Of a stretch of DNA of 64,000 bases, positions 1-47,863 are shown in pieces. The stretch is from an uncultured Mycoplasmatota bacterium (GTDB taxonomy: Bacteria; Bacillota_I; Bacilli_A; RF39; UBA660). Positions within the stretch are counted from its first letter, which is position 1. Each line of letters starts with the position of its first letter. Under the pieces are notes generated by a model, which searched no databases, was not told where the DNA came from, and saw only the letters and a program-made list of their open reading frames with translations. The stretch spans positions 1 to 64,000 of the forward strand of contig CANSRH010000001.1 of NCBI GenBank assembly GCA_947649365.1, read 5' to 3'. The position numbers and the translations under genes are program-made.

Positions 1-16
1 TTATTGTATAGGTGCT

Positions 17-397
17 TTGGCTATTTTGTTTGGAATTTTTCATTTGGTATCTTATTATCAATTGAAAAAAGAATTGAAAGTAGAAGATAATCAAAAATTG
101 GTTTTAGGAACAAGTTCTATTTTTATAGGAATTGTTACCATTTTACTAGCAGGAGCGATTGAAGCTTTTCTACGGTTTATTTTAGGTTTTCTTTTGCTGG
201 TTCATGGTATAAAGAAAATCATTGTTTCACTCAATCAAAAAAATTATATTTTGTTATTAGAAGGTATTCTTTTTGTAGGAATAGGGCTTTATACTGTACT
301 AGCCGAAAATATTATTTTCCAAATCGTGGGTGTCTTATTAATTGTTTCTAGTGTTATTGATTTTATAGCATTTATTAAAAAAAGAAAGTTTACTTAG
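17..397 (+). CDS. small multi-pass membrane protein, DUF308/HdeD-like
   Basis: ORF track; alternating hydrophobic segments; may start upstream of the window. Confidence 0.5.
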   Translation: MAILFGIFHLVSYYQLKKELKVEDNQKLVLGTSSIFIGIVTILLAGAIEAFLRFILGFLLLVHGIKKIIVSLNQKNYILLLEGILFVGIGLYTVLAENIIFQIVGVLLIVSSVIDFIAFIKKRKFT

Positions 398-1295
398 TAG
401 AAACTTTCTTTTTTGATGTTGTATTCTTTTTTTGTGTTGCCTCTTTTTTTGATTCAGCAGTCGTTGTTTTTTTAGACCCTTTTTTTGTTGTTGAAGTGGT
501 ATTTTTCCCCATTGTTGTCTTTTTTCTTGTTGGTTGTTTTTTTGTCACCGTTTTTGGAGCCTCTTTTGGTTCTGCTTGTTTTTTAGAAGTATTTTTCACT
601 GTTGTCGTTCTTTTTTTCCCACTTTCATTTTTTCCCTGTTCTTCTGTTTTTTTGGCTGTTTCTTTTTTATTTTCATTTGTATTGATTTCTTCCGTTTTTT
701 CTTCAGTGATTGGTGTTTTTTCTTTTGCTGAATACAATAAGAAGCCTAATCCTGCTATAGAAGTAACAAGAACTAAGATGGTAATCGCTGCTCCTGTTGT
801 CGTTTCTTCTTTTTCTACTAAAAAGTCGCTGACTACATCTTTATAAGTCTCTTTGTTGTTGTAATAATTTGTAATGATTTCTATTAGTTCTTTATCATAA
901 GAAGATGTGTAGCCTTGAAATGTCTTTTCTCCGATTACAATTAAAGGAACTCCTTTGACGGATTTATTAAAATGTTGGGCTACTTCCTTCATTAATGCTG
1001 CATTGTTTTCGTTGTGCCATATTTCAAACGATCTTAATTTAAAATATTTTCCATATTCTTTTACATTGTCTTTTAAAAAGTTTAAAAAGTTTTGACAGTA
1101 CCCGCATCGATCTCCTCGAAACATATAGATGGTAATTTGATTACTGGTTTCTTTGTAATCAGATAAGTCGTAATCTATTTTTTCTTTTTTTAGTGTTTCT
1201 TCTAAATTAAGTGCAGTATAGGATTTCGCATAAGTATGCATGGGTATTCCTATTAAAAATGCAATAAACATCACTATTTTTCCTATTTTTTTCAT
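390..1295 (-). CDS. membrane-anchored thioredoxin-like protein with Lys/Thr-rich C-terminal tail
   Basis: N-terminal signal peptide, CGYC redox motif, internal TM (AAITILVLVTSIAGLGFLLY), about 100-residue basic low-complexity tail. Confidence 0.7.
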   Translation of the reverse strand: MKKIGKIVMFIAFLIGIPMHTYAKSYTALNLEETLKKEKIDYDLSDYKETSNQITIYMFRGDRCGYCQNFLNFLKDNVKEYGKYFKLRSFEIWHNENNAALMKEVAQHFNKSVKGVPLIVIGEKTFQGYTSSYDKELIEIITNYYNNKETYKDVVSDFLVEKEETTTGAAITILVLVTSIAGLGFLLYSAKEKTPITEEKTEEINTNENKKETAKKTEEQGKNESGKKRTTTVKNTSKKQAEPKEAPKTVTKKQPTRKKTTMGKNTTSTTKKGSKKTTTAESKKEATQKKNTTSKKKVSTK

Positions 1296-1399
1296 CAGTT
1301 ATTCCCTCTCTTCGTCACTATTATACAATTTTTTTAGAGTCTTGAAAAGAATTTCATTTTTTTTATAAAAGATTGTTGGTACTTTTTCAAGTAGTCTTT

Positions 1400-2035
1400 T
1401 TATTCATGTTTTACTTTTAATATTGGAGTTATTTTTTCTTCAGGTTCTAAAATAAAATTTGTAAAAGATTCTTTTATTCGTTTTAATTCTTCTTTTCTAT
1501 ATTTCAATTTTTCTTTGATTTCTTTTACTTCTTTTAAGGCTTGTGTCTTTTTTAGTTGCAACAAGAATTTGTTTTTTTGTTTTGTTCTTTTAAAAATTGT
1601 AAAATCAATATGGTATGGTTTTATTAGTTCTATTAAGAAAAAAAGATCTTGTTCTTCAAAAGAACGGAGTTTATTAAAATAAATGGCATCTGTTTCTTTT
1701 ACAATATCAATCAGTCCATTTTTTGCTAACTTTTTTAATACGGTTTGGGGTAAAATAGAAGAATGACATACATAAGGATATTTTGGATTGTTTGTTACTA
1801 ATTCTTGAAAAAAATTAAATATATGTTTAAAGTAACATTCTTTTTCTTGCTCATAAAAGAGCGCTTGTAAGAAATACTCGCAAGATGAGTCATTTTTATT
1901 TATTTCAAAAATCAAATGATTATTATCCAATTTTACTTTTAATTTGAAGGAATCTTTATAAAACGATTCCCATGGTAGAAGACTTAATTTTAATCTTATG
2001 CTAGTTAGTTTTTGTCTTATTTCTTTCTTTTTCAT
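1400..2035 (-). CDS. hypothetical protein
   Basis: ORF track. Confidence 0.6.
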   Translation of the reverse strand: MKKKEIRQKLTSIRLKLSLLPWESFYKDSFKLKVKLDNNHLIFEINKNDSSCEYFLQALFYEQEKECYFKHIFNFFQELVTNNPKYPYVCHSSILPQTVLKKLAKNGLIDIVKETDAIYFNKLRSFEEQDLFFLIELIKPYHIDFTIFKRTKQKNKFLLQLKKTQALKEVKEIKEKLKYRKEELKRIKESFTNFILEPEEKITPILKVKHE

Positions 2036-2104
2036 GACATAAATCTCTTCTCTTTTTTACATATTATACACTTTTTAAAAAAAAGGAAAAGAAAAAGAGG
2101 AGTT

Positions 2105-2377
2105 TTATTCCTCTTCACATGCACAATCTTCACAAGTACATTCTAATTTTTCTTTGGTTTGTTGTATTTTGGATGCATCTACATTTTCGGTTTGATAAAA
2201 ACCTACTGTTTCCATAGACTTAAAAATTTCATAATGCATTTTGGATGCCTCTTGCAAGGCTTTTCCAAATGTTACAAATACTCGTTCGTTTGAAGATTCT
2301 ATTACTCCATGCATGTACAAGTCATTTATGACTTTGCTTCCGAACATTATGTTTTCCATCAAATATTTATCATCCAT
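2105..2377 (-). CDS. CotF-like spore coat protein
   Basis: GFYQTENVDASKIQQTKEKL resembles coat F domain; overlaps the next small gene. Confidence 0.55.
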   Translation of the reverse strand: MDDKYLMENIMFGSKVINDLYMHGVIESSNERVFVTFGKALQEASKMHYEIFKSMETVGFYQTENVDASKIQQTKEKLECTCEDCACEEE

Positions 2378-2565
2378 TAGTTTTCTTCCTCCTTTAATAA
2401 ATCCATAAACATGGTTAAAATTGACGTATGTTTTTTCCCTATTTTTTTTACTACTTTTCTTAAGATTTCATCGGTTAGGCAATCTTCTACTTCTTTACAT
2501 GTAGTAATCATATATATTTCATGATTGATTGCATCTTCTACATAAAGTAACTCTTTTTCTGTCAT
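2377..2565 (-). CDS. small CotF-associated protein
   Basis: 62 aa ORF translationally coupled to the CotF-like gene. Confidence 0.45.
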   Translation of the reverse strand: MTEKELLYVEDAINHEIYMITTCKEVEDCLTDEILRKVVKKIGKKHTSILTMFMDLLKEEEN

Positions 2566-2630
2566 AATAAAACACCTCCATTTGTAGTATGGAGTGTTTT
2601 TATTATTTTAAGTTGTTAGAAATTGGAAAT

Positions 2631-3527
2631 TTAAAACAAACTGATTTGTTCTCTTGTTGGAATTTTTCTTTTGTAATCCGCAATTATTTCACTCATATCA
2701 CAGAGAATATGGTTTTTACTACATTCGTTTACAAAAAGCTCCAATAAATCTTTATAACGCAATGGATTGGCAACTAAATTTTTTTCATATACTGCTTTGT
2801 AGTCGATGGACAATCCTGGATATAATTTATCAATGTGTTCATAATAATATTCTCTGGCTTTTCTTCTTAACGTCATTCCCATTTTGGTATAAATAAATTT
2901 AGCATCCTTTTCTTTTGCTTTGTGAATCAGTGTTTTTATGTTGTCTTCACTATCTGTAATAAAAGGTAATACTGGAGTCATGAGAATTCCTGCATAGATA
3001 TGATTGTCTCGTAGTTCTTTTAACACTTCCAATCGTCTAGTGGAAGAAATTACGTTAGGTTCTAAAACTTTCGCCAAGTCATCTTCATAAGTAGTGATAC
3101 TTATTTTGATAATCACATTATTTTTTAGAGCAATTTCTTTTAGTAAATCTATGTCTCTTAAAATTAAATCGCTTTTGGTATCTATAGAAACCCCAAATTC
3201 ATATTTTTTGATTAATTCTAGAGCTCCTCTTGTTATTTTGTATTTGCTTTCTAATTCGTTATAAGGGTCTGATAATGTCCCAAAGCTTACTACTCCTTTG
3301 TATTGTTTACTTGCTAGTTCTTCTTCTAATATTTTTAAAGCATCCACTTTGCTTCTTATCTCATCAAAGTTCTCAATGTGGTAAGCATCGCTTCTTGAGT
3401 CACAATAAATGCAACCATACGTACAACCTTTGTAAAGATTCATGTGATAATCAATTCCAAACCATCTGCTACCTTGGTCGCTTTTGGTCATAATTGTTCG
3501 CGTTTTCACATATTCCATAAAAACCAC
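2631..3527 (-). CDS. radical SAM protein, SPL/Rv2578c-like family
   Basis: CTYGCIYCDSR CxxxCxxC cluster motif; overall SPL-like layout. Confidence 0.8.
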   Translation of the reverse strand: MVFMEYVKTRTIMTKSDQGSRWFGIDYHMNLYKGCTYGCIYCDSRSDAYHIENFDEIRSKVDALKILEEELASKQYKGVVSFGTLSDPYNELESKYKITRGALELIKKYEFGVSIDTKSDLILRDIDLLKEIALKNNVIIKISITTYEDDLAKVLEPNVISSTRRLEVLKELRDNHIYAGILMTPVLPFITDSEDNIKTLIHKAKEKDAKFIYTKMGMTLRRKAREYYYEHIDKLYPGLSIDYKAVYEKNLVANPLRYKDLLELFVNECSKNHILCDMSEIIADYKRKIPTREQISLF

Positions 3528-3568
3528 CCGATATCTGCTTAAATTATAGCAAATTCCTGAAACAAAGT

Positions 3569-4567
3569 CTACAAATATGAAGATTCCTTTTTCACTCGTT
3601 GTCTTTTTAACTCACAATTTCTAATGGCAAAATCATAATGTGTTGCAACATATTCTTCTGCTACTTTTTTATTATGTAATAATTGACTTAGTGTATTTAT
3701 CATACATAATCTTTTGGAATTTAATGATTTGGATTTTTTTTCATAAATTTCATCTAATAATATCATTTTTAATGTACTTTCATCTATATGAATTGCCTCT
3801 TTATCTACAGTACTATATTTTCTTCTTTCTGTATAAGCACGTGTTTCATAAGAGCCACTGGTATTAAATCCGTCTTTATAATGCCAATCGTTTTCATTGC
3901 GATAAAAATTGTAAATCTCTTCATAATTTGTATTCTCTTTTGTTCCTTTGATATTTATGACATTTATGTCATACCCATTGTCTTGTTGATTTACTACCAT
4001 ATTTTCTATTTTTATTACTCCGCAAATATCAAATTCTGCTATTCCATTTTTCGAGAATAAAAATCCACAATTTCCTAAAGCATACTTTTCACTATCTTCA
4101 AAAAGTTGTATTCCTTTTATATTTGCCCCAGTGAATTTCGCTCCTTTTAAAGTCTCTAAAATAGTGATTTTTTCTTGGTATGGCTTTGTCTCAAATTGAT
4201 TTTGTAAGGATATTTCTTTTTCTAATAAATTTCTCATTTCTTCATTATTTGTCGTGCCTAAATAATAATCTTCATAAAGTTCAAAATCATTGCATGCTCC
4301 ACAAAGTCCTTCTATACATAAAATATCACAACACTTTTCATTGACATTAAAATCTCTTGCAAAAATAATTGCTACTTTTCCGTGATGGTTCCAAATATTT
4401 CTACTATGTTGTCGATAAGAATAAAACATCGTAATTGAGCTTAAGTTTTTATCGATAGTTGCAACAATTCTTTCTTCTTTGTCTATAAAATAATTTTTTT
4501 TCTTTCCAGAAACCATAGTAAAATTTTTATATAATATTGAAAAAATCATTTCATATGATAGTTTCAT
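3569..4567 (-). CDS. uncharacterized protein with predicted phase-variable promoter; start taken at MKLSYEM
   Basis: RBS-like GGGGGGAAGAAAG before ATG at 4567; upstream part of the 365 aa ORF is the poly-G promoter region. Confidence 0.65.
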   Translation of the reverse strand: MKLSYEMIFSILYKNFTMVSGKKKNYFIDKEERIVATIDKNLSSITMFYSYRQHSRNIWNHHGKVAIIFARDFNVNEKCCDILCIEGLCGACNDFELYEDYYLGTTNNEEMRNLLEKEISLQNQFETKPYQEKITILETLKGAKFTGANIKGIQLFEDSEKYALGNCGFLFSKNGIAEFDICGVIKIENMVVNQQDNGYDINVINIKGTKENTNYEEIYNFYRNENDWHYKDGFNTSGSYETRAYTERRKYSTVDKEAIHIDESTLKMILLDEIYEKKSKSLNSKRLCMINTLSQLLHNKKVAEEYVATHYDFAIRNCELKRQRVKKESSYL

Positions 4568-4594
4568 CTTTCTTCCCCCCTTTTTTAATTGTTT

Positions 4595-4624
4595 ATTATG
4601 ATAACATACCCCCCCCCCTGTCAA
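4595..4624 (-). promoter_or_regulatory. candidate promoter with G10 spacer: TTGACA-G10-TATGTTAT-CATAAT
   Basis: Consensus -35 TTGACA (4624..4619), G10 (4618..4609), CATAAT (4600..4595) at 18 bp spacing; alternative extended -10 TGTTATCAT at 15 bp. Confidence 0.65.
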
Positions 4625-4690
4625 TTTTTTCTTTAACACATTTAAAACGTTTAGAATATAATACATTGGAATTAAAAGGAGGAAAATAAA

Positions 4691-5686
4691 TTGAAAAGAA
4701 AAGTTTTGGGGGTTATTTTAGGGTTACTTGTTGTTTTGGTTTTAACAGTTACTATTGTTAAATGGAATAACTCGTCTAAAAATGAAAACTTGACAAACAT
4801 TCAACTTGCAGAGGTGACACATAGTGCTTTTTATGCTCCTCTTTATGTAGCTATGGAAAATGGTTATTTTAAAGAGAATGGCATAGAAATAGAACTACTT
4901 CTTACACCAGGAGCAGACAAGGTGGCTGCCGCTGTATTATCAAATGATGTACAAATTGGTTTTGCTGGACCGGAAAGTGCTATCTATGTTTATCAAGGAG
5001 GAGAAGAAGATTTTCTTGTTACATTTAGTGGTTTAACAAAAAGAGATGGACAATTTATTGTTTCAAGAGAAGAGAATAAAGATTTTTATTTGGAAGATTT
5101 GAAGGGAAAAGAAATACTTGCTGGACGTCTTGGAGGAATGCCTGTTTTGAATTTTCAAAATGCGCTTAAAAATGAAGGGGTTAGTGAAAGCGACATCAAG
5201 ATGAATACAAGTGTAGAGTTTGCTTCTTTGTCTGGTTCTTTTATTTCTGGCATGGGAGATTACGTTAATTTATTTGAACCGAATGCTACGAAATTAGTAA
5301 AAGAAGGGTATGGTTATATCGTTGGAAATATTGGTGCTTTTTCTGGAGAAGTTCCTTATACCGCTTTTTATGCTAGAAAAAGTTATTTGGAGAATAACGA
5401 AGAAACAATAAAGAAGTTTACAAATGCTATATTAAAAGGGTTACAATTTGTGAGTGAACATTCTAGCGAGGAAATTGCTCATGTAATTTTACCACAATTT
5501 CCTGATATTTCTTTGACGGATTTAACAAGTATTGTAGATAATTATAAAAAATATGATTCTTGGCTAACTACTCCATTTGTTACAGAAGAAAGTTATAAAA
5601 ATTTACAAGATATTATGAAAGATGCTAACTTATTAGATTCTTATGTTCCTTATAATGAATTAGTTCGAAATGTAACAAATGACTAA
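4691..5686 (+). CDS. ABC transporter substrate-binding protein, NMT1/ThiY/SsuA-like
   Basis: AGGAGG then TTG start; signal segment; AEVTHSAFYAPLYVAMENGYFKENGIEIEL. Confidence 0.85.
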   Translation: MKRKVLGVILGLLVVLVLTVTIVKWNNSSKNENLTNIQLAEVTHSAFYAPLYVAMENGYFKENGIEIELLLTPGADKVAAAVLSNDVQIGFAGPESAIYVYQGGEEDFLVTFSGLTKRDGQFIVSREENKDFYLEDLKGKEILAGRLGGMPVLNFQNALKNEGVSESDIKMNTSVEFASLSGSFISGMGDYVNLFEPNATKLVKEGYGYIVGNIGAFSGEVPYTAFYARKSYLENNEETIKKFTNAILKGLQFVSEHSSEEIAHVILPQFPDISLTDLTSIVDNYKKYDSWLTTPFVTEESYKNLQDIMKDANLLDSYVPYNELVRNVTND

Positions 5687-6428: not shown

Positions 6429-7071
6429 AGAACAAAAAAATTATTTGTTTCAAATGAAAAGAAATCGATTTTTAATTGTAGGAGTTCAGATTTTTCTTGT
6501 TCTTGTCTTTCTTCTTTTGTGGCAAGTACTAGCGGATAAGAAATTAATTAATCCATTTATTTTTTCTAGTCCCAAAAGAATCGTGGAAACAACGATTTCT
6601 TTGTACCATCGCTATGATTTAATCGCTCATATTTTAACTACATTGTATGAAACGATGCTTGCTTTTGGCTTGGGGATTGGTCTTGGATTTGTAATTGCAG
6701 TTCTTCTTTACGAGTTTAAAACTTTAGCGAAGATCGTTGATCCTTTTTTGACAATGCTTAATAGTTTGCCGAAGGTAGCATTAGGGCCTATCATTATTAT
6801 TTGGGCAGGAGCGAATACTAGAGCAATTATTGTAATGGCACTTTTGATTAATTTGATTATTAGTATTATTACAATTTATAATGGATTTTTAAGTACAGAT
6901 TCTTATAAAATTAAACTTTTACAGTCTTTTGGTGCTAGTAAGTTACAAATTTTGACGCAACTTGTGATTCCTGCTTCTTATAGTACGATTATTTCGTCCT
7001 TAAAAATTAATATTTCTATGTCTTTGATTGGAACAACCACATATATGGAGAAATTCGTTTTTAAAATTTAA
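6421..7071 (+). pseudogene. ABC transporter permease (SsuC/ThiX-like), 5' portion interrupted by element A
   Basis: Permease sequence to MSLIG then element-derived TTTYMEKFVFKI stop; missing C-terminus found at 13485-13662. Confidence 0.9.
7010..7055 (+). other. attL of element A (GG core at 7030-7031)
   Basis: tctttgattGGaacaaccacatatatggagaaattcg. Confidence 0.75.
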
Positions 7072-7072
7072 T

Positions 7073-8419
7073 CTATTTTATTTTGTAATAGATTTTTAAA
7101 TTATTATTATCAATTACAATTTTATCAATAATACATTCAATAACTAATCGTTGTTCTTCAAATGTCATCATATTCCAGAATGTTCTTAAATTTAATACCA
7201 TGTTTTTTGTAGTTTCTATTTTTTCATTACTTGTTTTTGCTACATCTAATTCCTTTTGAATCTTTTCTCTCTCTATTTGTAATGTCTTTAATTTATCTTT
7301 AATTTCAACAATATCAATACCTTCTGAAATACAATTTAAAAGATTTTCTATCTGTTTCGTAATTTTGACAAAACGATTTTGTAACTCATCTATTTCACTT
7401 ACACTGGCTAGTGAAAAAGTATCCTCTAACTTTTTTTCATCTAAAGACATCATAAATATTTGTTCTAAAACAGCATCTTCAATTTCAAATGAATCAACTC
7501 TTTTATTTTTACAGTTAGGATTTTTAATAAATTTAGGTTTGCTTTTTTGTTGGGAATAACAATAACAAATAATTCTTTGCCCCCACTTTTGATAGCGATA
7601 TTTTGCTCCACATTGCCCACAATAAATTTTTCCTGATAAAAGATAATGTCTTGCTGTTCTAGTTTTACTTCGCATTTTGTTCATTCGAATTATCTCCTGA
7701 TAAGTTTCTTCGGACACAACAGGTTCATGACACCCATCAAATATTTCACCTTTATATGGAACTTTACCAGTATTAGTAATACTTAGTATTCTTTTTTCAA
7801 CTAGGCTTTCATCCATTCCCACTATTGTTGCTATTTTATTAAAACTTTTCCCACCTAAATAAAGTGAAATCATTTTATTTAGAACTGTAACTTTTTCATG
7901 GTTAGAAACTAATATTCCTTTTTCTTTGTCATAATCATATGGAAATGGAATCTTACCTCCACCTCGCCATAGACCTGCTTCTGCTCTTTTTTTTAGTCCT
8001 AATCTCGTTCTTTCTAAAATAGTTTCTCTTTCTAATTGAGCAAAAACAGATAAAATTCCTATCATAGCTTTACCAAATGGAGAGGTTGTATCAAAATTTT
8101 CTCTTATTGAGATAAAACCTACATTATATTTATTAAATACTTCTTCTATTAAAAATAATGTATCGCGTTGACTTCTTGATATACGATCTAGTTTATAAAC
8201 AATAACGCAATCTATTTTTTTATTTTTTACATCATTTATTAAATTTTGAATTGATGGTCTATTTAAATCTTTACCGCTAAAACCGCCATCAATATAAAAT
8301 TCATAAGAATCAAATTCTTTGCTTTTAGCAAAATTTACTAATAATTCTTTTTGGGCATCTATAGAATAACCTTCAACTTGCATATCCGTAGATACTCTTG
8401 CATAAAGTCCTGCTTTTAT
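7073..8419 (-). CDS. large serine recombinase; probable start is ATA at 8419, upstream of the ORF-track ATG
   Basis: Catalytic motif (K)AGLYARVSTD lies upstream of ATG 8383; AGGAGG 7 nt before ATA; recombinase zinc-ribbon CGQCG...C. Confidence 0.85.
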   Translation of the reverse strand: MKAGLYARVSTDMQVEGYSIDAQKELLVNFAKSKEFDSYEFYIDGGFSGKDLNRPSIQNLINDVKNKKIDCVIVYKLDRISRSQRDTLFLIEEVFNKYNVGFISIRENFDTTSPFGKAMIGILSVFAQLERETILERTRLGLKKRAEAGLWRGGGKIPFPYDYDKEKGILVSNHEKVTVLNKMISLYLGGKSFNKIATIVGMDESLVEKRILSITNTGKVPYKGEIFDGCHEPVVSEETYQEIIRMNKMRSKTRTARHYLLSGKIYCGQCGAKYRYQKWGQRIICYCYSQQKSKPKFIKNPNCKNKRVDSFEIEDAVLEQIFMMSLDEKKLEDTFSLASVSEIDELQNRFVKITKQIENLLNCISEGIDIVEIKDKLKTLQIEREKIQKELDVAKTSNEKIETTKNMVLNLRTFWNMMTFEEQRLVIECIIDKIVIDNNNLKIYYKIK

Positions 8420-8514
8420 TTTGTTTCCTCCTTTTCTTATATAAAAGCATTTATAGTAAAAAAATCTTGCTCTTATATATTACCATGATTTTAAGATATT
8501 AAAAAGAGAATACT

Positions 8515-8643
8515 CTACATATTCTCTAGTTTAACATTTGCTACATATTTTTTTATTATTTCATATAGTATTGAAATATTTAATTGAACATCTTTTAAAT
8601 TGATTTCTTCATTATACAAATTATAATTAATTACTTGAATAAT
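8515..8643 (-). CDS. possible small ORF (about 42 aa) between recombinase and ABC-3C operon
   Basis: Open frame IIQVINYNLYNEEINLKDVQLNISILYEIIKKYVANVKLENM; AGGTGA upstream but no ATG/GTG start. Confidence 0.3.
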   Translation of the reverse strand: MIQVINYNLYNEEINLKDVQLNISILYEIIKKYVANVKLENM

Positions 8644-8701
8644 AAATCACCTAATTAATTATATTTTTAGTTTTAAAAAAAAGAACTTCTATAATAAATC
8701 T

Positions 8702-10633
8702 CTAATTTTCTATATCAATAAATTTTCCTGTTTTACTACTCCAATGCTTTATTGTTCTATCAATATATTTATCTGAAATCAACTTTAAATTTTCACCTCT
8801 AACATGCTCAGTTAAAATAAGCTGAGGCATTATTCCTGTTTCTTTTTGAATAATATCAAACTCATCAAAAATTGTTTTAAAGATTCTACTGATTGCATCA
8901 ATATCATTTGATATATTATTCCCATTTGCAGAATTATAATCAGGAAAATAAATTTGACTTGGTTGATCAAAAAATAAAAATAATAACATAGGAGATTTTT
9001 CATGTCTTTTTGTAAATGAATGTAATAAGCTTAAAAACAATGCTATATGACATGATAACCAATTAGCACCACTTCCCATTTCACTATATCCTACTTTTTC
9101 TCCATCTTTAAAATTATACAAATCAAATGTTTCTAAATCAAATTTTAAATTTAATGGATAGAAATCCTCTTCAAAATCCAATGTTTGAGCAATTCTGTTC
9201 ATATTTGAATTTATTTCATCACTTATTTTTTGAATTTCACCTTTTAAGTTAAACTTTTCTAATATTTTCTTAAGTTCATCACTTTTTTCTGATAATTCTT
9301 TTAATCTATCACTATATCCCATATAAACCTTATCTATCAAAATTTCTAAATAATACTTTATTCGAAGTTTTGCATTAATTTTCTTTTCTTCTTTGTCAAC
9401 TAACTCATTATTATTTAAGTAGTGATCTTCTATATACTTTTTCTCCTTATAAAGGAATTTTAACTTTTTATTTTTATCATTTAGCAATTTTGAAAGTTTT
9501 CTTTTCTCCTCAAGAAAATGCTTGTTAGTTGCACATGCAAAATTTCTTTCTAATTTTAATTTATTTTTACTTTTTATCATTTCTTCAAAATCTGCATTTA
9601 TTTCATCTACAAAATTTTTACAAATAGGACAAATATACTTTTCATCATTATGACTAAGATTTGCTATCTCAATAGCACTATCTATACTATCTAAATATGA
9701 GAAAATATCATGATTTGTATCATTTATACTATCTATTTTTAGTTTTATATCAGAAATTTCTATACTTAAACTTTCAATATCGTGTTTAATACTTGCATAA
9801 TTATCTACTATGTCTTTATTGATAAAATTAAAATCATCAGATGGCAAATTACTTGCAAATTTTATTAATCCATCAGTATCTAACTTTCCAACATACTCGG
9901 GAACATCTTGACCAATCAAAGCATAATACTCAGTTAATAAAGGAAACAATTCTTCTAACATTTTATGATAAGATTTTTCTTCTAATTCTTTTCTTCGAGT
10001 AACATTTCTAATTTCCTGTTCTATTTCTTTTAATTCTATTAAAGTAGAATAATACTGCTGATCAACTATTCCAGCAAATATTGGAAATTGCTCAATTACC
10101 TGCATTCTTTTTTCGCTATCGGTAAATCTACTAAATAAAACAAATTTATTTGCTATATTACTTTGATGCTGAAACACATATGAAAGCATATTCCTAATTG
10201 ATGCCTTTCCTTTATTTTGAATAAAAGGATTAGCATTTAAATTTGTTACTGTCAATCCTAAATTTTCTTCTATTATTTTTTGAATATCTTTAGGATTAGA
10301 GAAAGAGGTAAAATCATCAATATTAATATTATCAATAATAACTTCCGAAGAGTCAAACGTTAAAGCCATTTTACCATCTGAAGCTCTCCTAGCAATTATC
10401 ATCGCTTTTTCACCTATACAAATAATTAATGTATATATTGTACCATAATTCTTTATAACACCTTTGGGTACTGGATTTCTACTAGAACATAAACAATAAT
10501 CAATGATTTCGATTAAAGCGCTCTTTCCTGTTTTAGATTCTCCAGTAATTATATTTATCCCCTTCTTAAATTCAAGCAAACTTTTTGAATTTTCATCTTT
10601 AAAAACTATAATTCCCTTAATATATTTATTCAT
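8702..10633 (-). CDS. DUF3732-type ABC/SMC-like ATPase of an ABC-3C system
   Basis: Walker A GESKTGKSALIEI, coiled coil with CPIC, GSGANWLSCHIALFLSLL signature, LFFDQPSQ Walker B. Confidence 0.8.
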   Translation of the reverse strand: MNKYIKGIIVFKDENSKSLLEFKKGINIITGESKTGKSALIEIIDYCLCSSRNPVPKGVIKNYGTIYTLIICIGEKAMIIARRASDGKMALTFDSSEVIIDNINIDDFTSFSNPKDIQKIIEENLGLTVTNLNANPFIQNKGKASIRNMLSYVFQHQSNIANKFVLFSRFTDSEKRMQVIEQFPIFAGIVDQQYYSTLIELKEIEQEIRNVTRRKELEEKSYHKMLEELFPLLTEYYALIGQDVPEYVGKLDTDGLIKFASNLPSDDFNFINKDIVDNYASIKHDIESLSIEISDIKLKIDSINDTNHDIFSYLDSIDSAIEIANLSHNDEKYICPICKNFVDEINADFEEMIKSKNKLKLERNFACATNKHFLEEKRKLSKLLNDKNKKLKFLYKEKKYIEDHYLNNNELVDKEEKKINAKLRIKYYLEILIDKVYMGYSDRLKELSEKSDELKKILEKFNLKGEIQKISDEINSNMNRIAQTLDFEEDFYPLNLKFDLETFDLYNFKDGEKVGYSEMGSGANWLSCHIALFLSLLHSFTKRHEKSPMLLFLFFDQPSQIYFPDYNSANGNNISNDIDAISRIFKTIFDEFDIIQKETGIMPQLILTEHVRGENLKLISDKYIDRTIKHWSSKTGKFIDIEN

Positions 10634-10634
10634 A

Positions 10635-11132
10635 TTAGATTCCTTTCATCAGTTCTAGAAATTCATTAATATTATTTTTTGATAAAATAACGCCTAAATA
10701 ATAAGATGATCTAATATACTCCTTGATGTCTTTATTTTTTATTCTTTCAAATGATTTATCAATGTTTTTATTAATTATAAATCCCTTTGAATCAATAGCT
10801 ATCTCATTTTTTGTACTTAAAATAATAATGACCTTTTGTGTTAAATTTATTAAATCAGTATTATTTTGAAAAATGCTATACAAGTCTATTTTTGAATTAA
10901 GACTAACTTGATTATTATAATATTTTTTATTAGATGCAAATAAAGAATATATATCGCTTCTATTGTTTGCACTATTAAGCTTCTTTCTACAGTCACCATT
11001 ATAAATAATAGGAAGAACAAACATTAAAACACTGTAATGCAAATCTTTTTGATATCCACAAATAAAACTATGAATAATTTCACTTGAAAAAAAAGGACTA
11101 TTTATTATTCTATTTATTTCAATTGCACCCAT
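10635..11132 (-). CDS. three-component ABC system middle component
   Basis: NSPFFSSEIIHSFICGYQK..LHYSVLMFVLPIIY pattern; sits between ATPase and nuclease-like gene. Confidence 0.75.
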   Translation of the reverse strand: MGAIEINRIINSPFFSSEIIHSFICGYQKDLHYSVLMFVLPIIYNGDCRKKLNSANNRSDIYSLFASNKKYYNNQVSLNSKIDLYSIFQNNTDLINLTQKVIIILSTKNEIAIDSKGFIINKNIDKSFERIKNKDIKEYIRSSYYLGVILSKNNINEFLELMKGI

Positions 11133-12265
11133 TACTTATCCTCCAAATGCCAGGTGAATTTATTACTATCAACCATATTATGCACTACTCCTCTCTTTAT
11201 TGATTCAGAATAAAAAATAAGTGAAGATTCGACTTTAGCATCCATTCCTTTATGATAAAAAACTTTCGAACCGTTTATAATATCTGCTATTGATTCAATC
11301 CTACACATATCTTTAATATTGTGTATCTTTAAATCTAAGTTATCAACATATTTATTATACTCTCCTGTAAATGCTGGATTCTTTTTAAATTGAGCATTAA
11401 GATTTACATTAGCTTTAAAATAGTCCATAATTGCTGAATCAATTTGTTCATCATACTCAATCCTTTTTATTTCTTTCACGAAATTTTTCTCTAAATATTG
11501 TAATTTTTCTTCTTCTGTAAGTTTATTGTTTGAAGCTAAATCATCAATTATAAATCCAACTTCTTTTACATTTGGTCTTAAACTACGTAAAATCTCAATA
11601 ATTTCATTATAGCTTATTTTCCAATCTTGTTTGTTCTTAACAACTGGAATATTAATTAAGTTTGCATATAAGCCATTAAAAAGTATTTCTTTTTCATTAT
11701 CTAAATAAAGCTTAAATATCTGTGCATTCATAACTTTCTTTTTTATATCCTTAAATCCTTCTTCATTACTTTCTATTCTAAATTTTTTCAATATTGTCTT
11801 TAATTCTGAGTAATTATCTTTAAAAAATATTAAGTCATAATATTTTTTTCTATCTTGATTAACTTGTTTTTTATTTTTATCTTCTTCGTATATTTTATAA
11901 ATAATTCTGTATTTTTCAAGTTCATCTAGCGCATTCCAATTATGAAATATACTAGTGTTCTTTATCTCAGAAGTAGTGTATAAAATTAAAGATTGACAAT
12001 TTAATGAAACATCTAAATTCAAAAGCCAATTATAAAGAGTTTTCCAAAAATCATCACTACGAGGGGTTAAATTATTTGAACAATCATGATATTTTATTTC
12101 ATATTGTTCTATAACATTTTCTTCATTATCTAATATTGTTACATCTCCTAGTGATTCTACTATAATTGAACCATTGTCTAGAACTAGGCATTTTGCTGCT
12201 GCAAACATATATTGATAAAAGTAACCCATTATCTGATCTGTGGCATCTTGTTTTTTTCTTGACAT
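11132..12265 (-). CDS. ABC-3C third component with Cap4/DUF4297-like PD-(D/E)xK nuclease N-terminus
   Basis: GYFYQYMFAAAKCL...IIVESLGDVTI...EQYEIKYHD; operonic overlap. Confidence 0.65.
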   Translation of the reverse strand: MSRKKQDATDQIMGYFYQYMFAAAKCLVLDNGSIIVESLGDVTILDNEENVIEQYEIKYHDCSNNLTPRSDDFWKTLYNWLLNLDVSLNCQSLILYTTSEIKNTSIFHNWNALDELEKYRIIYKIYEEDKNKKQVNQDRKKYYDLIFFKDNYSELKTILKKFRIESNEEGFKDIKKKVMNAQIFKLYLDNEKEILFNGLYANLINIPVVKNKQDWKISYNEIIEILRSLRPNVKEVGFIIDDLASNNKLTEEEKLQYLEKNFVKEIKRIEYDEQIDSAIMDYFKANVNLNAQFKKNPAFTGEYNKYVDNLDLKIHNIKDMCRIESIADIINGSKVFYHKGMDAKVESSLIFYSESIKRGVVHNMVDSNKFTWHLEDK

Positions 12266-12336
12266 TTATTATCACCTCAAAACTCTAAATATGAATTTAT
12301 TTTTGAGATTTATTATAACACATTTTCAAATTTTTT

Positions 12337-13374
12337 CTAATCATTTATGTCATTATTCTTCATATCTGCTATAAATATATCAAAATCTGATTCAAATAGT
12401 TTATCCTGTGTTACTCTATATTTTTCAAATTCACTTAATGCTTTATCAACAGCTATCTCATGTGATATTTTACCTGCATCTTTTAAAATATCTAAATCGT
12501 CTGCTAGTAAATATTTATCTATTCTTGTACTCCAATCTTCCATAGTCATAGGTATATGTCTTTCTGCCCTTCGTTCTGCAAGTTCTAAAAATGCATTCAC
12601 TATTCTTTCTAAATCTTTTATTTCTTCTTTAGTTAAATAATTTTTAGCAATTATAACATCAGATTCCATTATTTTTCCTTTTGGAGAATTCTTCCAAGAA
12701 GTTAAATTCATATTTTGTTTTGTATGATCTGCTCTATTATAGATAATCTCTGCTGCAGTTTGATGAGTGATGGCATAATGCATTTTATTTTGTACTTTTT
12801 TAAAAAACTCAATAGTCGTTGGGGCTTTAGCATCATAATCAATACTCGTAGCATAAATATCGGTAATTTTTTGATAAAATCTTCTTTCACTTAAACGAAT
12901 TTCTCTAATTTCTTCTAAAAGTTTTTCAAAGTAATCTTTATTTAAAAATGAGCCATTTTCCATTCTTTTTCTATCTAATACATATCCTTCAATAGTAAAT
13001 TTCTTTAAAACACTAGTTGCCCATCTTCTAAATTGCGTAGCTCTTCTAGAATTAACTCTATAACCTACAGATATAATAGCATCTAAACTATAAAATTTCA
13101 TTTTTCTTTTTACTTTTCTATTGCCTTCAGTTTGAACTATTGAAATTTCTTCAATAGTTGAATTTATATCTAACTCATTTTCATCAAATATATTTTTCAA
13201 ATGAACATTAATATTATCAATTCCTGTATTAAAAAGTTCAGCCATTGCTTTTTGTGTCATCCATAAATTCTCATTTTCATATCTAACTGAAATACCCTTT
13301 TCTTGCTCTTGAGTTTTAAAAACTAAAAATTCTTCTGTACTACTAATAACTTCTAAATTATTCAAAATAACCAT
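12337..13374 (-). CDS. RhuM family protein (copy 1, on element A)
   Basis: ENENLWMTQKAMAELF...FYSLDAIISVGYRVNSRRATQFRRWA...IYATSIDYD. Confidence 0.85.
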   Translation of the reverse strand: MVILNNLEVISSTEEFLVFKTQEQEKGISVRYENENLWMTQKAMAELFNTGIDNINVHLKNIFDENELDINSTIEEISIVQTEGNRKVKRKMKFYSLDAIISVGYRVNSRRATQFRRWATSVLKKFTIEGYVLDRKRMENGSFLNKDYFEKLLEEIREIRLSERRFYQKITDIYATSIDYDAKAPTTIEFFKKVQNKMHYAITHQTAAEIIYNRADHTKQNMNLTSWKNSPKGKIMESDVIIAKNYLTKEEIKDLERIVNAFLELAERRAERHIPMTMEDWSTRIDKYLLADDLDILKDAGKISHEIAVDKALSEFEKYRVTQDKLFESDFDIFIADMKNNDIND

Positions 13375-13454
13375 CCCCTTCTTTTTAATCTTAAATAGGA
13401 CTAGGATTATATTATATCAGATTTAAATTAGACAATAAATGATTTTAATTACTA

Positions 13455-13500
13455 AAAAATATTTCTCCGTCTGTCCTTAATCGGCGTAATTATGGGTGAA
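13455..13500 (+). other. attR of element A (GG core at 13483-13484)
   Basis: atttctccgtctgtccttaatcGGcgtaattatggg. Confidence 0.75.
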
Positions 13501-13662
13501 TTTTTGGTTAGTAAAAAAGGTATTGGATACTTAATCATTTATGGAACACAAGTTTTTAATTTAAATATTGTTATGAGTGGTATTGCTATTCTTATTTTTA
13601 TCTCTTTTGTTTTGTATCAACTGATTGATAAATTAGAGAAAATTTTATTAAAAGAAAAGTAA
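13485..13662 (+). pseudogene. ABC transporter permease, 3' portion beyond element A
   Basis: Reads (G)VIMGEFLVSKKGIGYLIIYGTQVFNLNIVMSGIAILIFISFVLYQLIDKLEKILLKEK stop. Confidence 0.9.
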
Positions 13663-46622: not shown

Positions 46623-47863
46623 TTAAATCATCACACGATAAGGATTTTCCATCGTTCCATCCCCATTTTTTAATAAAACATCTGCTTTTAAATAAAAAGC
46701 GGGGCGAATACTATTAGTATTATTATTTGCATCTTGGTAAGATATATTTCCAGAACTATTTATTGTTTTATTCATTGCATGATAATAACTATTAAAAGCA
46801 CTATCCCTAGTAATTGTCCATTCTGTTATTTTATTATTAAGCCAGGCATTCGTAAGATAGGATGCGGCATTGGAATCAACACTCCCCTCCCAATAACTTT
46901 TTGAAATTGAATAGGCATAATCGCTGGGATAAAGCAATGCTATTTTAGCAATATTATAATATGCAGATAAGCCATAACCTACAGACGTGTTTCTTTCCCC
47001 ATTATAATATTGATTTGGAGTAAACGAACTATCATTATTCCAGTAAATAGCCCCCCAATACCATTTGGAGTTTTCTATATATTTTTGGTATTCTCCTAAA
47101 CTATCCAAATATGTAGTATTTAAAATGTTGGAAGCTGTATATAAAACATCTCCTATATAATAGGTTTGTTCAGTATATTTTTTGGCTTTAATTAGTTTTA
47201 CTCGATTTTCATATTCTCCATCCACAGTACTTTGGGTAGGTAGGACTCCTATCACTCGATATAAATTCTCTTCTGTACATTCTTCTTCACATCCAAAGTA
47301 GACATAGTTATTTGGGTTCGCTCCAGTATAACGATAATCTTCTAATGCTGGGGTCTGTTCTGTTGCTTCATGACTTACTTTTTCTATTTCAGAAGATGTT
47401 TCACTTAACTTCACAATGTAATCGCTTAATTTGGAGCCTGTTGTAAATTCAATCAAACATTTCACTTTGGAAGCTGTTATATTTCGAATATTGGGTCCCC
47501 ATTCTTCATAATCCCAATATCCTTCTGCTCCTTTATCACAAGTTATACTTACGTTGTATGAACCTTTATTTGGAATAGTACTTGATGTTTCTCCATCGAC
47601 ACTAATGGCTAATTCTGTATCTCCTTTTGCAAATGCAGGTACTTGGCCTCTTAGGACATTGAATGTCTTTTCTTCTTTGTATAAGGCATAGCTTTTTAAT
47701 AGAACTATACTTCCTATTAAAAGTACAATTCCTATTATACAAAATATAACTCTTTTCTTATTTTGGTTTTTATAAAATCTTTCCAGTTCGTTAGATTCTT
47801 TTCCTAACGCCCCCCCCCCCGACGAACTTGTCTGGTTGGGAGAATATTTCTTTTCCTTTTCAT
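46623..47863 (-). pseudogene. phase-variable (frame-off) membrane-anchored surface protein; poly-G tract at 47810-47820
   Basis: ATG 47863 with GAAGGAG RBS; G11 gives stop after 19 codons; G12 or G9 joins the frame to the downstream ORF (1242 nt with G12). Confidence 0.85.
47810..47820 (-). repeat. poly-G contingency tract (G11)
   Basis: Eleven consecutive C on + strand. Confidence 0.95.

Follow-up and report, generated by a model that had tools for sequence, protein, structure and literature searches.

Results

A poly-G spacer promoter lies upstream of an orphan gene

The window, i.e., the entire stretch of 64,000 nucleotides that was analysed, has a GC content of 29% and contains only two long G/C runs, C10 (4609-4618) and C11 (47810-47820), while runs of 7 to 9 G or C are absent from these 64 kb. 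The C10 run lies in the region shared by a gene for a 332-aa protein and a divergent ABC operon, and we distinguish the following features there:

3569..4567, minus strand: gene of the promoter, encoding a 332-aa protein without an assigned function; open frame with the ribosome site AAGGGGGGAAG
4572..4582, minus strand: G-rich Shine-Dalgarno region AAGGGGGGAAG, present also in the syntenic promoter of genome G005
4595..4600, minus strand: alternative -10 CATAAT, 5/6 match; spacer of 18 bp at G10 and 17 bp at G9
4598..4606, minus strand: extended -10 TGT-TATCAT; spacer of 15 bp at G10 and 17 bp at G12
4609..4618, minus strand: G10 homopolymer in the -35/-10 spacer (C10 on the plus strand), from sequence reading and tract scans
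4619..4624, minus strand: -35 hexamer TTGACA, 6/6 match, from sequence reading and the promoter scan
4633..4662, plus strand: divergent ABC promoter TTAACA-18-TATAAT, conserved in several tract-free congeners
4691..5686, plus strand: gene for the NMT1-type substrate-binding protein of the divergent ABC operon

The -35 hexamer and G10 are contiguous with zero gap, and a run long enough to be prone to slippage lies between -35 and -10 elements that are both recognisable. On the minus strand, TATGTTATCATAATAAAC lies downstream of TTGACA-G10, and G10 is directly followed by TATGTTATCATAAT (4608-4595). Both -10 candidates deviate from a perfect TATAAT; the TATCAT hexamer at 4603-4598 has TGT immediately upstream. 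With either candidate, the spacer (15 or 18 bp) falls inside the range of ~15-20 bp over which sigma-70 promoters go from strong to weak. The first-pass annotation had described a perfect TTGACA followed by G10, with a spacer of 18 bp for CATAAT or of 15 bp for the extended -10, and a divergent TTAACA-18-TATAAT; sequence reading and scans confirm the letters and coordinates of the former, both distances were reproduced, and the promoter scan recovered the latter. Across the window, this generic scan returned 10 sites versus 9.9 expected in shuffles, which is not significant; because the DNA has 29% GC, such a scan is uninformative. What makes the site significant is the tract itself, together with the fact that the arrangement is found again elsewhere, with zero matches to the reversed pattern.

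The start codon of the 332-aa frame is at 4567, behind AAGGGGGGAAG. The product has no Pfam, NCBIfam or PHROG family above cut-off and no match among viral contigs, and a comparison with 389 genomes of the family returned only an identical copy on a probably mis-binned contig and a weak partial match. A single-sequence AlphaFold2 model was uninformative (pLDDT 37). Judged by these comparisons, the product is an orphan. On the other side of the intergenic region, the ABC permease gene is split, with the N-terminal part ending near 7032 and the C-terminal part at 13456-13632. The gene is interrupted by an insertion of ~6.4 kb (7036-13455), inside which lies a serine recombinase gene (7073-8383).

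The arrangement recurs in the source genome, its genus and its family

The source genome (1.47 Mb, 43 contigs) has about 31 genuine G9-G11 tracts, which form three groups, i.e., tracts in promoter spacers, coding tracts near a start codon, and other intragenic tracts. Eight of its sites, one of them with G8, match the strict pattern TTGACA-Nn-G8-11-N0-2-TATAAT; these eight do not include the window site or looser sites such as the spacer tract at C4:66968 upstream of an ABC ATPase gene. Within the genus, 32 sites in 13 of the 22 genomes (source included) match the strict pattern TTGACA-N0-10-G8+-N0-2-TATAAT, and 38 genomes of other genera or families gave 0 matches. Using a relaxed pattern, in which N0-8 is allowed before TATAAT, we found the arrangement in 56 of 389 family genomes, covering 38 of 152 genera, and with up to 23 sites in one genome. 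The reversed control pattern gave 0 matches in both the strict (60 genomes) and the relaxed (389 family genomes) search.

As expected of sigma-70-type promoters, the spacers in the genus are 15-20 bp long (mean 17.5, sd 1.3), and the tract lengths cluster at G9-G10. The tract touches the -10 at most congener sites and the -35 at the window site; the latter form recurs, because G007 (TTGACTTC-G10-TATGTTATAAT, with the -10 TGT-TATAAT) and G030 (TTGACTC-G8/9-TAAATATTATAAT) have promoters in which the tract adjoins the -35. Similarly, G225 has several promoters with G8-9 directly after TTGACA, as in the window. A scan of GTDB representatives returned at least 119 stretches, many of them in MAGs of gut Clostridia, Bacilli and Saccharibacteria; because the matches extend to other bacterial MAGs, the design is not confined to the source family.

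Among the genes under promoters of this class are those for an ABC ATPase, a sigma-70 factor, a putative thymidylate synthase and surface proteins. Among the GTDB matches listed, 61 of 84 first downstream genes encode a signal-like N-terminus, as called by a simple hydrophobicity rule, versus 18% of the other genes at the same loci; in the genus set, such N-termini are less frequent (9 of 25 downstream genes). The sigma-70 family factor (L065, G010 C68:1813; regions 1.2, 2, 3 and 4) lies under TTGACA-N8-G10-TATAAT and is possibly phase variable, judging from this promoter. The gene that reads as a thymidylate synthase (L033, G000) has a G10 in a promoter spacer with a weak -35 (C17:24646) and a second G10 that is in frame within the coding sequence (C17:24860).

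Tract length differs among orthologous and otherwise identical promoters

One and the same ABC ATPase gene is preceded by a poly-G promoter in six species, with G9 or G10 in otherwise diverged flanks. Two adjacent genes for secreted proteins have poly-G promoters with G10 and G8 in the source genome and with G9 and G9 in G020, giving the ortholog pairs G10/G9 and G8/G9. Within single genomes, promoters that are identical except for the tract have more than one length in 12 of 15 compiled groups, a compilation that leaves out at least two apparently invariant groups (G173 and G415, both G9). Examples of this spread are G9/10/11/13 in G033, G10/11 in G187, G11/12 in G294, and G9/10 in G291.

For the window locus itself, there is one readable copy. 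A second copy, contig C76 of G126, is 100% identical to window positions 1-4572 over 4572 bp and stops just before the tract, continuing as G-rich sequencing noise; this contig is binned in another genus and, given the identity, is probably mis-binned. We rejected the idea that the tracts arose as sequencing artefacts, because the sequence on either side is normal and they recur at orthologous promoters, while the G48 at the end of contig C37 (G000) was discarded as a G-call artefact. The G-rich noise at the ends of G000 C37 and G126 C76, at or just before tracts, is apparently a sequencing artefact. In the source genome, 9 of 32 tracts lie within 250 bp of contig ends (P about 6e-10); because sequencing drop-out and repeats also explain this enrichment, we do not use it as proof of heterogeneity.

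Similar, possibly related promoters precede different genes at one chromosomal position

Several congeners have the radical SAM gene (window 2631-3527) and the substrate-binding protein gene as direct, divergent neighbours, and the region between them is tract-free. The source genome has the 332-aa gene and the tract promoter between these two genes, at what we read as a site of gene exchange. At the same chromosomal spot, G005 has TTGACAAC-G10-TATATGTTATTATAAT, which is very similar to the window promoter and in which the -10 TGT-TATTAT is the counterpart of TGT-TATCAT. Downstream of this promoter lie two genes that are unrelated to the 332-aa gene and encode 247 and 118 aa, and then the radical SAM gene. 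Because TATGTTAT(C/T)ATAAT and AAGGGGGGAAG are common to both, the comparison suggests that the two promoters are related and carry different cargo; they may also have originated independently.

Discussion

The window site is a real and probably functional poly-G spacer promoter. We consider it likely that 4624-4595 on the minus strand is a slipped-strand phase-variable sigma-A promoter, in which the G10 in the spacer acts in the manner of porA. According to this model, replication slippage in G10 would add or remove Gs, the distance between -35 and -10 would move to either side of the 17-bp optimum, and the 332-aa gene would change its level of transcription reversibly and heritably. The promoter would presumably be used by the housekeeping sigma factor (sigma-A), and we infer variation at the window locus, an effect of spacing on expression, and any benefit to the cell. 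Because of the alignment with G007 (spacer 17) and G005 (spacer 19), the extended TGT-TATCAT appears to be the likelier -10 compared with CATAAT. The ON length would be G11 or G12 with the extended element and G9 or G10 with CATAAT. The first-pass annotation had also proposed a poly-G spacer promoter subject to replication slippage, a proposal that is well supported by the comparisons; that the tract also governs the divergent ABC operon, with which it shares the intergenic region, is a conjecture: the operon has its own promoter, kept in tract-free congeners, and its permease gene is split.

In Neisseria porA, a homopolymeric G run lies between the -35 and the -10. The window promoter shares with porA a G run in this spacer, of a length near the slippage range, and differs from it in the unrelated lineage and gene, in the number of promoters (up to 23 per genome), and in the position of the tract directly after the -35. 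In the hifA/hifB genes of Haemophilus influenzae, the repeat is a TA dinucleotide that serves both promoters. The window likewise has a region common to two divergent promoters; however, its G tract lies in only one of them. Poly-G tracts in Neisseria have modal lengths of 9-10 (PMC5953494), as do those in the source lineage. In the gut commensal Bifidobacterium breve UCC2003, G-tract slippage has been measured by maximum depth sequencing, and the same study notes additional G tracts in promoter spacers (PMC9187656); what is proven there concerns coding tracts in pilus genes, whereas promoter tracts are only mentioned.

Three other readings were weighed. As an addition to the phase-variable promoter rather than an alternative to it, the tract could be a two-sided switch, in which its length sets the 332-aa gene and RNA polymerase at that promoter represses the ABC operon inversely. 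The two -35 boxes, TTGACA (4619-4624) and TTAACA (4633-4638), are back to back and only 8 bp apart, making interference plausible, and spacer-length switching in the combined promoter region of the divergent H. influenzae fimbriae genes hifA and hifB provides a precedent, to the extent that PMC9187656 relates it (van Ham 1993). Nevertheless, the ABC promoter is retained in the congeners that lack the tract, the gap is larger in G005, and the permease is interrupted in the source genome, and we regard this addition as unlikely.

It is less probable still that the site is an ordinary promoter in which a stable G tract serves as a binding or structural element, either as the site of a regulator or as a G-rich non-template strand favouring R-loops. 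Such a function would fit the clustering at G9-G10 and the strand preference, the non-template strand always carrying G and never C (the same 60 genomes hold 32 sites with a G tract, and the C-tract version of the arrangement is absent from them); however, the lengths differ among orthologs and otherwise identical copies, and the position of the tract within the spacer shifts freely. That the site is a translational contingency locus, with a start at ATG 4666 and a tract in the coding N-terminus where slippage shifts the frame, is very improbable. In its favour, at G10 the frame is open from this ATG through the tract (365 aa), and coding G tracts close to the start codon occur in 12 genes of the source genome, one of them in the window. 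Against it, no apparent ribosome site precedes 4666 whereas AAGGGGGGAAG precedes 4567, the syntenic frame in G005 is closed by a stop 24 nt upstream of the start codon, and the presence of a perfect TTGACA would have to be coincidental. Moreover, an in-frame stop separates the tract from the start codon in 18 of 26 promoters of the class, which argues that the class is transcriptional.

The slipped-strand promoter mechanism is known; as far as our literature search shows, the lineage and the scale are new. Phase variation through simple repeats is known best from mucosal pathogens and mycoplasmas. Our literature searches, which combined phase variation with RF39, with gut Clostridia or with uncultured Bacilli, returned no prior description, although one may exist elsewhere. 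The arrangement recurs as a standard promoter layout across many genera of a family that has small genomes and is apparently uncultured, and it also occurs in scattered other bacterial MAGs. The window promoter is one example of a large, apparently undescribed set of predicted random switches, and it is the class, rather than the single window site, that deserves attention. More tentatively, the family-wide G-tract spacer promoters might make up a genome-wide network of random expression, with many independent promoters per genome and with a phase-variable promoter at an integration site at which cargo is exchanged. If so, combinations of random tract states would define cell types, and a sigma factor subject to phase variation would turn entire regulons on or off. 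Moreover, strong cell-to-cell heterogeneity is predicted, which short-read MAGs would hide because contigs of the source genome tend to end at such tracts. The class provides a directly testable set of switches.

Coding G tracts form a separate group in the source genome. The C11 run at 47810-47820 lies in the coding frame, shortly after the start of a gene for a surface-type protein (about 46623-47858, minus strand), which is out of frame at G11 and whose frame a tract of G9 or G12 would restore; from its position, this tract looks like a member of the translational poly-G contingency class. The 12 genes with coding tracts (L003, L006, L010, L014, L017, L019, L027, L031, L032, L034, L035, and L040) belong mostly to one surface-protein family with an N-terminal ILPTS/ILPTR-like motif. 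Taking the frames from the ATG nearest the tract, we found that 11 of the 12 are out of frame in the assembly and that one is in frame (L027, C10:12496, G9). This distribution (about P = 0.05 if frames are random) could hint that these genes are expressed one at a time.
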